In this document: positions 21,044 through 30,902 of the stretch, piece after piece
How the letters are laid out: each line of letters opens with the position of its first letter
Position numbering within the stretch: the first letter of the stretch is position 1
IMG/VR virus record: IMGVR_UViG_3300013101_000044
Span: 1-33,789 of that record
DNA length: 33,789 nucleotides
Source of the DNA: a virus
Direction: 5' to 3' (one strand)
The notes under the pieces: generated by a model
What the model was told of the DNA's origin: nothing
Database searches by the model: none
Seen by the model: the letters and a program-made list of their open reading frames with translations, nothing else
Position numbers and translations under genes: made by a program

Positions 21044-21093
21044 GAAATCAACAGAACGGGACATGAGTCCACCAGTATAGGAGACCTTCTGAC

Positions 21094-21242: not shown

Positions 21243-21288
21243 ATACAGAACGGGACATTAGTCCACCACCAAAAATTGGAGATACAAA

Positions 21289-21851: not shown

Positions 21852-21921
21852 ATAGATCTTGTTATACAATATAGTATAGCCGGATTTATGGGCACTAACT
21901 ATTATAGGAGACCTTCTGACC

Positions 21922-22993: not shown

Positions 22994-23041
22994 CGTAGCC
23001 GTCGTGCAGGCGTCGTGCAGGCGTCGTGCAGGCGTCGTGCG
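22994..23041 (+). repeat. Right repeat array: four 11-base tandem units
   Basis: Four direct units of the form (G)GCGTCGTGCA start at 22998, 23009, 23020 and 23031, preceded by CGTA. The period is exactly 11, about one helical turn, so all units face the same side of DNA. Array is followed by GATTTTTAAA. Confidence 0.85.
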
Positions 23042-23200: not shown

Positions 23201-23229
23201 TTGACTTCCCAGACAAATAATGACAAAAT
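23201..23229 (+). promoter_or_regulatory. Sigma70-like promoter for second early unit
   Basis: -35 TTGACT (23201-23206), 17-base spacer, -10 CAAAAT (23224-23229), preceded by AT-rich AAAATAAAGC. It lies about 175 bases before the first gene (23404), leaving a long leader. The upstream block is shared with the element at 21015. Confidence 0.55.
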
Positions 23230-25499: not shown

Positions 25500-25678
25500 A
25501 GAGAAGCAGAGTATGTAGGACGTGTTGCTGTTTCATGCAGTTTGATGAGATGGGAACCACTGGAATTGTCAACGCCAATGATGTAGAAGGTTATTGTGAG
25601 ATAACAGGTGATGACAAGTATAATGCTAAAACTGAAACCTGTCCCGCATGGGAGAGTTTGGAGACACTTACCCTATGA
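25496..25678 (+). CDS. Cys-rich probable zinc-binding protein, 60 residues
   Basis: Start at 25496 (GGAG 5 bases upstream, ATGA overlap). Cysteines at 7, 10, 11, 12, 34 and 49: C-x2-C at the N-terminus, then EGYCEITGD and ETCPAWE, giving a C-x2-C...C...C-P-x-W pattern. Small phage proteins with this arrangement bind one zinc ion (or an Fe-S cluster) and are common next to nucleotide-metabolism genes. The stop overlaps the start of the HD gene. Function unknown; the metal site is inferred. Confidence 0.7.
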   Translation: MKRSRVCRTCCCFMQFDEMGTTGIVNANDVEGYCEITGDDKYNAKTETCPAWESLETLTL

Positions 25679-26286
25679 CTAGAAACCCGTTGTATACAAG
25701 CCCAACCAATTCTAATATACTGATGCAGGGACGGTCAGTAAATCCTCTAGACCCAGACTCATTCGAGCCTAAACTAGAAGAGATTATTCACGCGTTATCA
25801 AACATTTGTCGGTTCAATGGCCACACGTCCAGGTTCTACTCAGTGGCTGAACATAGTCTAAACTGCGCGTTGATAGGCCACGATCTGTACTATATAACCA
25901 CGCCACACTGTAGCTTATACTTATTGCTCCACGATGGAGCGGAAGCGTATCTGCAAGACCTTATCAGACCATTAAAGCAATTCGCTACCGATGAAATGTT
26001 GTTGGCTGAAAAGAAGATAACCGAAAAGATAATGCAACTTATACCATGCTCTGATAAAGACAGGGAAGACTTCAAACATCCACTCTTCCAAGAAATGATG
26101 GACGAGATAGACACACGCATGGCGGTGACAGAGGTGGACACGCTGATTCCACACTGCAAAGGAATGTTGCCAGGCTACAAACCTTATGCTCTGGAAATAC
26201 CCGCCGTAGTATCGCTAAACGTCAAGATTGTGTTTGAAATTACAATAAAATCGTTAATGGCTGAACTGACACAGGAGACAAAATGA
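25675..26286 (+). CDS. HD-domain phosphohydrolase (YfbR-like)
   Basis: 203 residues from the ATG at 25675 (ATGA overlap with the preceding gene). An upstream in-frame ATG at 25648 has no SD. Residues 35-95 contain IIHALSNICRFNGHTSRFYSVAEHSLNCALI, with H50 and H60, and LYLLLHDGAEAYLQDL with H86-D87 and D95: the conserved HD metal-binding set. The 'RFNGHT..FYSVAEHS' signature belongs to HD hydrolases that remove phosphate from nucleotides (YfbR-like deoxynucleoside monophosphatase group). It probably adjusts deoxynucleotide pools during replication. Substrate not shown by sequence. Confidence 0.88.
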   Translation: MTRNPLYTSPTNSNILMQGRSVNPLDPDSFEPKLEEIIHALSNICRFNGHTSRFYSVAEHSLNCALIGHDLYYITTPHCSLYLLLHDGAEAYLQDLIRPLKQFATDEMLLAEKKITEKIMQLIPCSDKDREDFKHPLFQEMMDEIDTRMAVTEVDTLIPHCKGMLPGYKPYALEIPAVVSLNVKIVFEITIKSLMAELTQETK

Positions 26287-26461
26287 ATTTATCCGAAGAC
26301 GTAGCGGCTTTCGTAGAGAAAGCGAAGACGAGGTATGGAATAGCTATAACAGGAATAGACGTAGTTTGGACATTGGCGAATGTGATAGGAGACCGACACT
26401 GTACCCACACCTTTAAGGAAGCCAAGATAGTAGGAGTAACGACACAGGAGACAAAATGAAT
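26268..26461 (+). repeat. 21-base exact direct repeats flanking the 58-residue gene
   Basis: 26268-26288 and 26441-26461 are identical over 21 bases (ACACAGGAGACAAAATGAAT with one more G at the 5' end). Each copy contains the end of one gene (codons TQETK then TGA), the SD and the ATG of the next one. The same C-terminal peptide thus ends the HD protein and the 58-residue protein. A cassette insertion or tandem duplication through this junction would explain it. Confidence 0.85.
26283..26459 (+). CDS. Small unknown protein, 58 residues
   Basis: ATG overlaps the HD gene stop (ATGA), SD CAGGAGAC. Sequence MNLSEDVAAFVEKAKTRYGI, AITGIDVVWTLANVIGDRHC, THTFKEAKIVGVTTQETK. It ends with the same TQETK tail as the upstream HD protein because of the flanking repeat. 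Helix-turn-helix-like layout, one Cys and two His (RHCTHTF). Not recognised. It appears to be a one-gene cassette between the repeats. Confidence 0.65.
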   Translation: MNLSEDVAAFVEKAKTRYGIAITGIDVVWTLANVIGDRHCTHTFKEAKIVGVTTQETK

Positions 26462-27631: not shown

Positions 27632-27922
27632 ATGAAATTCGAAACCAAATACAGTATAGGAGATAAAGTTTGGGTTGCTGCAGGGTCAAATCCACGCAGA
27701 CCAATGCAAGCCACAATCGGTCAGGTCAACGTACAAGCCACAAATTCTCCAGGAATTGAAGGGGAGGACATGTTTGACAATTACAAACCGCAAAAAGGTT
27801 ATGTAGAAAAATACATGTGCATAGAAACGGGAATAGGTACAGGTACTTTATGGCAACCGGAACTTAATCTTTTTGCCACAAAGGAAGAATGCACAGACAA
27901 GATAACGCTTAAAGGAGCATAA
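27632..27922 (+). CDS. Small unknown protein, 96 residues
   Basis: Starts directly after the ligase stop (TAAATG). Opening KFETKYSIGDKVWVAAGSNP has the pattern of a small SH3/KOW-like barrel (Y-x-x-G-D-x-V-W), followed by RRPMQATIGQVNVQA and a linker, and ends with ELNLFATKEECTDKITLKGA. Such small barrels often assist nucleic acid-binding proteins. Not recognised. Its position between ligase and helicase makes a replication accessory role conceivable. Its stop overlaps the helicase start (TAATG). Confidence 0.65.
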   Translation: MKFETKYSIGDKVWVAAGSNPRRPMQATIGQVNVQATNSPGIEGEDMFDNYKPQKGYVEKYMCIETGIGTGTLWQPELNLFATKEECTDKITLKGA

Positions 27923-29529
27923 TGAAAGAGAAATCACCACCATACCCACACCAACTAGAGTGTTTTGACAAGTTCAAGTACGCTCAGTGGGCAGCAATAT
28001 TCGCTGCCATGGGAACAGGAAAAAGTCGTATGGCTATCGATATAGTCGAGTTTAAATATCATATGCGTAATCACGACAGATTAGTTATTATAGCTCCAGT
28101 AGCTGTTGGGCCTCAGTGGCATAACGAGCAGCTACCAGAACACTGTGGAGTTCCTTATCAATCATACGTTTACAGGTCTGGCAATCTCGTCAGGGATAAG
28201 CGCGCACAGGAAAAGTTCTTTGCAGACTGTAAGATGAACACTGATCTGCAGGTGTACATATTGAATCCAGAAGCTTTTGTGAAGGAGAAAGGCAATTCTC
28301 TGGTGCGTCGGTTTTGTAATACTTCTAAAAAACCGCCTATGTTTATAATTGATGAAGCGTCACGCATTAAGAATCCTGATGCCAAGTCTGTAATAAACAT
28401 CATGAAACTGAGGCGCGAGTATCCTGAGTCCTTTAGATCGGTGATGACGGGTACACCTGCGGCCAAGTCTCCAGTAGATATGTGGTCTATTTTTGAGTTT
28501 TTGAAGCAAGATTATATGGGTTGTTCCTTTATGGCTTTCCAGCATCACCATGAAATAATGTTCGATAGGAAGCTGAAGATAAAGGACAGGCTTGTTAAAA
28601 TCCGAACCAATCTTGATGCTCAGACGCAACAAAAGATTAGGCGATGGGTGTATAACAATACCAAATCCCCTGAAAATGCTGCTTATATCTGCAAACAGTA
28701 TGGTCTCAGTACAGTTGATTTTGAAATAATTGCGAACAATAAGGAGTTTATCAGATTCAAAAACGTAGATGAATTGCATAAAAAGATAGCTCCAGACACA
28801 TTTTCAGTTAGTAAAGAGGATTGTCTAGACCTGCCAGAAAAGGTTTACCAGGTGATCGAACTAGAAATAAACGCCGAACAGAAGAAACAAATCAAGCAGT
28901 TGGCTAAATACTCCGCTACAGTGTATGAAGGAGAGACGCTTACAATATCTACGAAGGCGTTGTTAGGCACAAGAGTACTTCAGATTTGCGGTGGAAACTT
29001 ACCCGTACACACTGAAAAAGACGGCGTTTACACCACCATTCCTATAAAAGGCACCAACGCAAAGCTAAACTACATTGTAAGTGACCTAGCTGAAGCAGGT
29101 GGGATGCAGTGTATTGTATGGGCTGTATATGTTGCAGAGATAGAAATGTTGATGCGAGAGCTTGGAAAAAAGTTCACAGTAGTAGGAATGTCTGGCGCTA
29201 CGCCTAAAAAAGACCGTCCTGCAATTGTAGAGGAGTTCAAACGAGGTGACGCTCAGATACTCATCTCTAATCCAGAGGTAGGCGGCTATGGTTTGAACCT
29301 GCAAGCAGCAGAGTTACAATATTGGTACAGCCGTTCATTTAGGACGGAAGCCAGGTTGCAAGCAGAAGACCGTAGCCACCGCATTGGCACAGTCAGAAGC
29401 CCAGTGTACAAAGATCTTGTATATAATAGTGGTTTCGAGAAGAATGTACTGGACGTATTGAAGGAAGGCAAGGACATGAATGCCACCTTCGTAACGACTA
29501 GTCTCAATGACATCTTCAAGATTCTATAA
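27922..29529 (+). CDS. SNF2-type superfamily 2 helicase/translocase
   Basis: 535 residues, SD AAAGGAG before ATG. Motif I AAMGTGKSRMA (K34), Ia IIAPVAVGPQW, II IIDEAS (D144-E145), III MTGTPA (T176-P179), V NPEVGGYGLNLQAAE and VI QAEDRSHRIG (480-489). The combination of DEAx, 'GLNLQ' and Q-x-x-x-R-x-H-R-x-G is that of SNF2-like helicases carried by many phages. It would translocate on double-stranded DNA during replication or recombination; phage versions lack chromatin domains and this one is minimal in size. It ends in the repeat that brackets the next gene. Confidence 0.93.
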   Translation: MKEKSPPYPHQLECFDKFKYAQWAAIFAAMGTGKSRMAIDIVEFKYHMRNHDRLVIIAPVAVGPQWHNEQLPEHCGVPYQSYVYRSGNLVRDKRAQEKFFADCKMNTDLQVYILNPEAFVKEKGNSLVRRFCNTSKKPPMFIIDEASRIKNPDAKSVINIMKLRREYPESFRSVMTGTPAAKSPVDMWSIFEFLKQDYMGCSFMAFQHHHEIMFDRKLKIKDRLVKIRTNLDAQTQQKIRRWVYNNTKSPENAAYICKQYGLSTVDFEIIANNKEFIRFKNVDELHKKIAPDTFSVSKEDCLDLPEKVYQVIELEINAEQKKQIKQLAKYSATVYEGETLTISTKALLGTRVLQICGGNLPVHTEKDGVYTTIPIKGTNAKLNYIVSDLAEAGGMQCIVWAVYVAEIEMLMRELGKKFTVVGMSGATPKKDRPAIVEEFKRGDAQILISNPEVGGYGLNLQAAELQYWYSRSFRTEARLQAEDRSHRIGTVRSPVYKDLVYNSGFEKNVLDVLKEGKDMNATFVTTSLNDIFKIL

Positions 29530-30199
29530 GGAATAGATATGATAGATTTTAGTATAATGCCTAGTTTAGAGTGCGATCTGCGGTGTTCTTTTTGCATGTA
29601 TGACGCGAGTCCAGAAAATAAGACAGAATTGGATTACGAAAAGACAAGGGAATTTGTAGCCAAATGGGATTTTAGTGCAATAAACAACGTAGGGTTTTAC
29701 GGAGGAGAACCTTCGATTAATTTTGTATTATATCAAAAATTTATAGACTTGCTACCAAAAGTACCAAAATTTGTAATAACCAACGGAGCTTGGTCTACCA
29801 GCGTAGATAGGACTGAAGCCTTTATAGAGTTTATTTACGACAACGACTTATATACAATAATATCTGGAACCAAAGAACACAAGATGTATCAAAATGAAGG
29901 CGTACTTAGGGCAATAAAGGAAAACGCGTACAATATGATTCGGTTAAAGGATGGCGATGTTATTCACAAAATGGGCAGAGGAAAAGACTACCCAGGCGCA
30001 ATGGACAAGTGTAGCGGATTTTGTTGTTTAGACGATAGAATTACTAGACTAGCCATTATGCCAGATGGAAACATTGTCTTCCAAAACTGTCATGGAAACT
30101 ATCCAATTGTGCAAACAATTGAAGATCCCTTTGAAGGAATATTGGAACGAACTATGAATGCGGTAAAGAATTGCGGCCTCAAGCTTCTATAAGGAATAG
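29516..30199 (+). repeat. 21-base direct repeats flanking the radical SAM gene
   Basis: 29516-29536 and 30179-30199 match at 20 of 21 bases (TCAAG, one variable base, then TTCTATAAGGAATAG). Each copy comprises the last codons and stop of the gene before it (K-I-L or K-L-L then TAA) and the SD of what follows. The second copy now leads into non-coding sequence. This suggests a one-gene insertion by recombination. Confidence 0.85.
29539..30192 (+). CDS. Radical SAM enzyme with SPASM/twitch-like C-terminus
   Basis: 217 residues. C12-x3-C16-x2-C19 (CDLRCSFC) is the [4Fe-4S] cluster motif of radical SAM enzymes, and GFYGGEPSI (G55-G56-E57-P58) is the SAM-binding motif. TNGAW and the C-terminal block C158-x3-C162-C163...MPDGNIVFQNC184 and C212 fit an auxiliary cluster of the SPASM/twitch class. 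It is short for the class but complete in the core. Substrate unknown; SPASM relatives mostly modify peptides, and some phage radical SAM proteins act on nucleotides. It is clearly more AT-rich than its neighbours (hand-counted blocks: about 35% GC versus about 46% in the helicase) and sits between 21-base repeats, so it appears acquired. Confidence 0.9.
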   Translation: MIDFSIMPSLECDLRCSFCMYDASPENKTELDYEKTREFVAKWDFSAINNVGFYGGEPSINFVLYQKFIDLLPKVPKFVITNGAWSTSVDRTEAFIEFIYDNDLYTIISGTKEHKMYQNEGVLRAIKENAYNMIRLKDGDVIHKMGRGKDYPGAMDKCSGFCCLDDRITRLAIMPDGNIVFQNCHGNYPIVQTIEDPFEGILERTMNAVKNCGLKLL

Positions 30200-30236
30200 G
30201 CGTTGAAGAAAAAACACGCTTCGATGCAGAAAAAGC

Positions 30237-30265
30237 TTGACTTTTTTGAAAAAATTTAGTAAAAT
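30237..30265 (+). promoter_or_regulatory. Strong sigma70-like promoter
   Basis: -35 TTGACT (30237-30242), 17-base spacer, -10 TAAAAT (30260-30265, five of six consensus bases). It starts the third early unit about 50 bases upstream of the gene at 30321. Its core GCTTGACTTTTTTG is identical to the late promoter on the other strand. Confidence 0.8.
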
Positions 30266-30320: not shown

Positions 30321-30902
30321 ATGCCAGATTTAAGTCATCTTACCGATCATGCAGAAAACAACGAAGAAACCCCAACGGTATCGTCGTTGGAAGAAGTAAC
30401 CGCGTACTCAGAAGCATTGATTGAGAAGCGTGCTGAGCTTAAGATTATGGAAGCGGATGCAAAAGCCAAGAAGAAAGAAGTTCTTAAGCTGGAGCAGGAA
30501 TTACTTCCACAAGCTCTTTTATCCATCGGACTGCAGTCTATCCAATTACGGTCGGGCGAGACCGTATCAGTCAAAGAGGATATGTCCTGCTCAGTTAAGG
30601 ATTATTCTAAGCTGTATGACTTCCTGGAAGAACAGGGCGATGATGCTCTCATGAAAACATCAATCGAAGTAGGTAAGCTTCCTCAGAATATCTTGAACAT
30701 GATTCTTAAGGAAATGAAAGACACCTACGACATTGACGCAACCAGCCAATTGTACATCCATCCTAGTACACTGAAAGCGTACTTCAAGCGTTTATGTGGT
30801 ATTGGAGAAGGTGTTGAAGCTAAGGTGCCGCTTGCCTCCATTGATGAAGAAATGCTGGGAACCTTTACGTTTTACAAAGTCGCTGTCAAAAAGGCTAAGT
30901 GA
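30321..30902 (+). CDS. Coiled-coil early protein, 193 residues
   Basis: Start at ATG 30321 with CAAGGAGA 7 bases upstream; the open frame runs further upstream through the promoter but without a ribosome site. Residues of about 25-80 form a charged helix (SEALIEKRAELKIMEADAKAKKKEVLKLEQELLPQALLS), followed by LQSIQLRSGETVSVKEDMSCSVKDYSKLYDFLEEQGDDALMKT. The layout, a coiled coil then a small alpha/beta domain with GxxSVxLxxGxxV, is shared by phage proteins of unknown function that are usually encoded beside ssDNA-binding and nuclease genes. A role in recombination or replication is suggested only by this context. Confidence 0.75.
   Translation: MPDLSHLTDHAENNEETPTVSSLEEVTAYSEALIEKRAELKIMEADAKAKKKEVLKLEQELLPQALLSIGLQSIQLRSGETVSVKEDMSCSVKDYSKLYDFLEEQGDDALMKTSIEVGKLPQNILNMILKEMKDTYDIDATSQLYIHPSTLKAYFKRLCGIGEGVEAKVPLASIDEEMLGTFTFYKVAVKKAK

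Follow-up and report, generated by a model that had tools for sequence, protein, structure and literature searches.

The stretch of DNA analysed here (the window) is a 33.8-kb viral record in which the structural genes lie on the minus strand and the early genes on the plus strand; the phage is of the siphovirus type, and its terminase is about 40% identical to those of Kagunavirus-type enterobacterial siphoviruses. An ORF on the plus strand (29539..30192), which starts with an ATG at 29539 behind the sequence AGGA and ends with a TAA stop codon, encodes a protein of 217 amino acids, a candidate compact radical-SAM/twitch enzyme. It is located between the gene of an SNF2/ResIII-type DNA helicase (27922..29529, + strand; PHROG 62, 4e-86; 69-73% identical in the relatives described below) and a sigma70-like promoter, TTGACT-17-TAAAAT (30237..30265, + strand), which is the best promoter match in the region and is followed by the gene of a Pam3 gp33-like protein (30321..30902, + strand; Pfam DUF7307, 1.4e-17; 63-70% identical in the relatives). 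An HD deoxynucleotidase gene at 25648-26286 indicates that the phage carries some nucleotide metabolism. Two further features were seen: the early promoter-like sites at 23201-23229 and 30237-30265 have AAGCTTGACTT in common, with a 17-nt spacer and CAAAAT or TAAAAT, the second site being kept in position in the relatives, and the 11-nt unit AGSCGTCGTGC occurs four times in tandem in a non-coding stretch at 22997-23040. The 217-residue protein contains the CxxxCxxC motif of a radical-SAM core (C12, C16 and C19), GGEP at 55-58, the cysteines C158, C162, C163, C184 and C212, and PDG at 175-177; this combination of core and C-terminal cysteine set, pointed out in the first-pass annotation, is confirmed by the ORF coordinates and residue positions. 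Pfam PF04055 (Radical_SAM) matches it at 8.7e-7, just above the gathering threshold.

The gene is bracketed by two copies of a 21-nt repeat, TCAAG[A/C]TTCTATAAGGAATAG, at 29516-29536 (TCAAGATTCTATAAGGAATAG) and 30179-30199 (TCAAGCTTCTATAAGGAATAG), both read on the plus strand and identical at 20 of 21 positions. The repeat consists of last codons, a stop codon and a Shine-Dalgarno (SD) sequence: in the left copy, the final 14 nt of the helicase gene are followed by the SD that the radical-SAM gene uses; in the right copy, the final 14 nt of the radical-SAM gene are followed by an SD-like sequence. Thus, the first-pass annotation was right about the near-identity of the repeats and about their stop codon and SD, but the gene does not lie exactly between them, since each copy overlaps a gene end. 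Scanning the window for repeat pairs with at least 19 of 20 matches and at most 2 kb apart returned four pairs, versus none in eight Markov shuffles. Each of the four is located in the early region, either at a gene border or in a leader. No copy of the 21-nt sequence was detected in a scan of other viral contigs. A second insert (26267..26461, + strand) has the same architecture: its 58-aa ORF (26283-26459) is flanked by exact 21-nt repeats (GACACAGGAGACAAAATGAAT, at 26268-26288 and 26441-26461) that copy the final TQETK-stop of the upstream HD-domain gene, an SD and an ATG, and both the HD-domain gene and the 58-aa ORF end in TQETK-stop. Separately, overlapping leader repeats (ACAGAACGGGACATKAGTCCACCA and TATAGGAGACCTTCTGAC) occur at 21051-21093, 21245-21268 and 21898-21920 upstream of small early ORFs, where one pair of copies brackets a hydrophobic ORF of 27 codons; one of the relatives (L002) repeats a similar leader, AGGAGACCTACTGACATG.

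We identified relatives of the phage by scans for its helicase, gp33-like and terminase proteins. They form two lineages, one represented by 3300035698_013823 (loci L005 and L006) and the other by 3300040778_000093 and 3300040801_002133 (L002, L003, L007 and L010), which look like members of a single lineage. In both lineages, directly after the helicase gene come the promoter, at the same place as in the window, and the gp33-like gene, and the flanking proteins are collinear and 63-73% identical. The radical-SAM gene is missing from this slot in both lineages, with no remnants detected there, and a profile search found no copy of its compact family elsewhere in the relatives' records. The right flank of the insert aligns from about position 30209 with the promoter-leader region of L005, a match equalled in none of 300 shuffles; together with the conserved flanks, this alignment indicates that the extra DNA amounts to the radical-SAM gene plus one repeat length, as far as a flank alignment can tell with relatives that, at about 70% protein identity, are too diverged to define the exact empty site. 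On either side of the ligase gene, in the slots towards the HD phosphatase gene and towards the helicase gene, the relatives have different small ORFs or an HNH-like ORF, and the slot of the second bracketed insert likewise holds different ORFs; therefore, the radical-SAM slot is one of several variable single-gene slots. The HNH-like ORF (L005:3681-4220) occupies the ligase-helicase slot, where the window has a 96-aa ORF.

Since both related lineages lack the gene and have the helicase gene, the promoter and the next gene adjacent to one another, the locus is most simply explained by the insertion of a single gene, a moron, at this slot. The cassette proposed in the first-pass annotation, which had also suggested a search of related phages for its presence or absence, is therefore supported by that comparison. 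This style of insertion is already known, because the window holds a second bracketed gene and a nearly identical case has been published: in mycobacteriophage Island3, gene 68 shares its 3' end with the upstream gene 67, while the close relative Brujita has one copy of the sequence and no gene (PMC3029335). The likeness lies in a single gene placed after another, with the same 3'-end sequence on both. However, the Island3 repeat is 60 bp long and accompanies an orphan protein, versus a 21-bp repeat and a recognisable enzyme here, and the empty site is visible in its sister phage Brujita, whereas the window phage has no close sister showing one. More generally, repeats at gene borders and variable single-gene slots between conserved genes resemble recombination at short boundary sequences and the morons of tailed phages, although the insert, in contrast to classic lambdoid morons, has no promoter or terminator of its own. 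Entry most likely occurred by recombination at gene-end sequences, so that the insert came to be flanked on both sides by a copy of the gene end, and its position after the helicase gene and ahead of the native promoter that serves the gp33/gp34 genes is strongly supported. The helicase ends in KIL in the window phage but in KIE or EIE in the relatives, and a radical-SAM homologue from another phage (L019, see below) ends in KLLQE; these endings, few as they are, hint that the incoming gene brought the shared CTATAAGGAATAG with it. As the right repeat covers the last codons of the radical-SAM gene, truncation of the enzyme by the insertion was considered and rejected, because the L019 protein also ends ..FCDKLLQE, and the KLL end looks native in this comparison.

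The reverse course of events, in which the gene is ancestral and the two relatives lost it, with the repeats either incidental or marking where the deletion took place, has in its favour that repeats at gene ends allow a gene to be precisely removed as readily as inserted; the authors of the Island3/Brujita study, who invoke recombination at such sequences, noted that the two directions are not readily distinguishable (PMC3029335). We consider it improbable here, as two lineages are without the gene and without remnants of it, the other known members of the family all come from unrelated phages, and the GC content of the gene is the lowest in the window. On the last point, the contrast with the helicase gene claimed in the first-pass annotation from a hand count (about 35% versus 46%) is real but smaller: the radical-SAM gene has 37.3% GC, the helicase gene 42.4% and the window 43.2%, and a GC content this low is seen in only 0.66% of 654-nt windows, all but one of which overlap the gene. 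On the other hand, its codon usage and trinucleotide distance are unremarkable, and thus composition alone is weak evidence of foreignness. An assembly artefact that joined foreign DNA through the 21-nt repeat might be suspected of a metagenomic contig in which the insert is flanked by the repeat, but it is very improbable given native flanks on both sides, intact reading frames and SD, and three other gene-border repeat pairs in the same genome.

Single-sequence scans of viral and genome contigs returned no relatives of the protein. A first full-length homologue was found in viral contigs with the degenerate motif C[DN]LRCxFCMY, and a second with the resulting two-sequence alignment; a scan with PKFxITNGxW returned only these two again. 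They are encoded on a 68.7-kb viral contig (L019, 44-45% identical) and a 214-kb viral contig (L020, 35% identical), both from phages unrelated to the window phage. The three proteins have in common C12/C16/C19, FYGGEP, NGxW, MGR, C158, C162, C184 and GxYPI; of the five cysteines after residue 150 one is not conserved, and C212 has a counterpart in the same region of all members, though gapped or misaligned in one homologue. The L019 gene sits between tRNA-Ser and tRNA-Phe genes in a 12.7-kb locus with 21 tRNA genes (L019:2182-10848), and the L020 gene between those of an AAA ATPase and a Cas4-like nuclease; no neighbour gene or small precursor gene is common to the three loci. An 18-codon TTG frame noticed by eye after the right repeat was set aside as a candidate precursor peptide, as it overlaps the conserved promoter. 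PHROG 1802 (radical SAM domain-containing protein) matches all three members, but only over their first 90-125 residues or so, the N-terminal core, in a profile of 556 positions, and the nearest annotated phage proteins (e.g. that of Campylobacter phage CC_R7, about 390 aa) share the core only, at about 23% identity. The family profile, which does recover its target when present, retrieved 65 cellular loci, none of them full-length: the matches cover the core only, within longer proteins mostly of about 480 aa and mostly of SPASM size. It gave no match at E<=1e-14 in 1588 cellular genomes from four phyla other than Pseudomonadota. Judged by these searches, the compact full-length family appears to be rare, phage-borne in our sample and without full-length cellular relatives in the sampled genomes. 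A phage-borne enzyme of this kind had been called unusual, which is overstated, as radical-SAM genes are common on phages, with twelve in one T4-like genome (PMC5332604) and radical-SAM gene cassettes distinguishing two pelagimyophages (PMC7029224); the rarity applies to the compact full-length family.

Structure prediction from the single sequence was not usable (pLDDT 32), whereas an AF2 model built from 24 aligned sequences of the fetched loci reached a pLDDT of 77.8 and a pTM of 0.77, with the C-terminal part resting on three sequences and with a pLDDT below 50 in the link 142-167 that carries C158 and C162. Twitch domains have a hairpin and then a helix after the core, with cysteines before the hairpin, after the hairpin and after the helix (PMC6231123). 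The predicted C-terminus follows this topology, with a hairpin at 170-182 (strands 170-173 and 178-182), a strand at 190-193 and a helix at 198-212, and so does the placement of C158 and C162 before the hairpin, C184 after it and C212 after the helix. With VIA-align, the best match was BtrN (Z 14.8 over residues 1-217, 195 of the 217 aligned, rmsd 3.1), followed by EpeE (Z 14.2), ChlB (14.0), anSME (13.5) and SpeY (11.6), the first three being tied within one Z unit. Since the alignment behind the model included other radical-SAM cores, a match in the core is expected, and the informative part is its extension to residues 213-217. The CxxxCxxC and GGEP motifs, invariant in the three members, the Pfam match and the fold all place the protein in the radical SAM superfamily, and the model and cysteine placement indicate a radical-SAM core plus a putative C-terminal twitch domain with four conserved cysteines, with neither an RRE nor a SPASM domain. 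A SPASM identity was rejected, as the seven-cysteine motif CX9-15GX4C..CX2CX5CX3C..C is absent. Accordingly, of the "SPASM/twitch-like" assignment in the first-pass annotation, which had proposed structural comparison with SPASM, twitch and QueE-type enzymes, the twitch part stands, on cysteine placement, hairpin and helix, and whole-length fold match, and the SPASM part does not; a QueE identity is not supported either.

A shared fold does not give the function, and in this enzyme class function cannot be read from similarity (PMC6231123). BtrN (2-deoxy-scyllo-inosamine dehydrogenase, PDB 4m7t) is alike in being a single-domain enzyme of core plus twitch with no RRE, in size (246 versus 217 residues), in its fold over the whole length and in having four cysteines for one auxiliary cluster. 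However, the two proteins are only 13% identical, no aminoglycoside genes lie near the radical-SAM gene, no 2-deoxy-scyllo-inosamine/butirosin pathway genes were found among the window ORFs scanned, and in BtrN a single cysteine precedes the hairpin, another follows it and two more lie beyond the helix (PMC6231123), in contrast to the 2-1-1 distribution in the window enzyme. By analogy with characterised enzymes, the cluster on C12/C16/C19 would cleave SAM to a 5'-deoxyadenosyl radical that abstracts a hydrogen from the substrate, and a second [4Fe-4S] cluster on C158, C162, C184 and C212 would accept or relay the electron, much as in the oxidations carried out by BtrN and SPASM enzymes. Electron acceptance by the auxiliary cluster has been proposed in the case of BtrN and seen in SuiB (PMC9012708). 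Such a reaction would yield an oxidised residue of a peptide or protein, either dehydrogenated or cross-linked, or an oxidised small molecule.

An epimerase of the EpeE/YydG type, which would abstract a C-alpha hydrogen and invert a residue in a phage or host peptide, is suggested by several matches. Among many weak NCBIfam matches to radical-SAM peptide maturases, YydG is the top one for all three family members, it is also the top PDB sequence match, and EpeE (PDB 8ai1-8ai6) shares NGxW, the fold and two clusters, as predicted here for the window enzyme. However, the NCBIfam score (32 bits) is about a tenth of the equivalog cut-off of 300, the sequence match covers the core only, the window enzyme is about 100 residues shorter, and neither an EpeX-like precursor gene nor a small precursor gene common to the three loci was found. 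Moreover, EpeE C223, the hydrogen donor needed for epimerisation (PMC8326336), is the second cysteine of the C222-C223 pair after the hairpin, which corresponds to C184-H185 here and to C-D in both homologues, a position read off the alignment of the hairpins rather than off coordinates. A different thiol could take the place of Cys223, but we regard an epimerase as unlikely. An enzyme acting on nucleotides, DNA or tRNA, either viperin-like or of the 7-deazaguanine/QueE type, seems to us distinctly doubtful. Viperin-like enzymes do appear in the fold list (Z about 11), the phage has the HD deoxynucleotidase gene, and one homologue lies within the cluster of 21 tRNA genes, but unrelated phage genes are commonly inserted in tRNA clusters. 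The NCBIfam models of QueE and viperin give scores well short of their cut-offs (20.1 bits, E 4e-4, versus 260, and 15.6 bits versus 180, respectively), no queuosine-pathway gene was found among the window ORFs scanned, and QueE and viperin are not known to have the auxiliary-cluster cysteines.

We consider it fairly probable that the locus is a recently gained single-gene accessory insert encoding a minimal twitch radical-SAM enzyme with auxiliary-cluster oxidative chemistry and a substrate supplied in trans. Translation should depend on read-through of the helicase operon, because the gene has no good promoter of its own and the only one in the region is situated downstream of it, and its Shine-Dalgarno sequence is supplied by the left repeat. 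The substrate is probably provided by the host or the phage in trans, because no neighbour or precursor gene is common to the three carrier phages. The gene product is thus most likely a rare phage accessory enzyme whose auxiliary cluster may support, by the above analogy, the modification of a peptide, from host or phage, or of a small molecule by oxidative radical chemistry. A further reading, unlikely in our judgement, is that of a phage-only minimal twitch family that spreads as single-gene inserts among unrelated phages and post-translationally modifies a host protein or defence component during infection; if true, it would represent a radical-SAM route of host takeover or counter-defence.

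Taken as a whole, this is a known kind of event, a moron bracketed by gene ends, and its cargo is a compact twitch radical-SAM enzyme about which little is known. Phages often carry radical-SAM genes, few of which have a known substrate; here a complete twitch enzyme of very small size (217 aa, no RRE) lies on an apparently dispensable insert, and therefore it can be cleanly expressed or removed to ask what is modified. In addition, the bracketed single-gene inserts in one genome make recombination at gene ends testable as a route by which phages gain genes.
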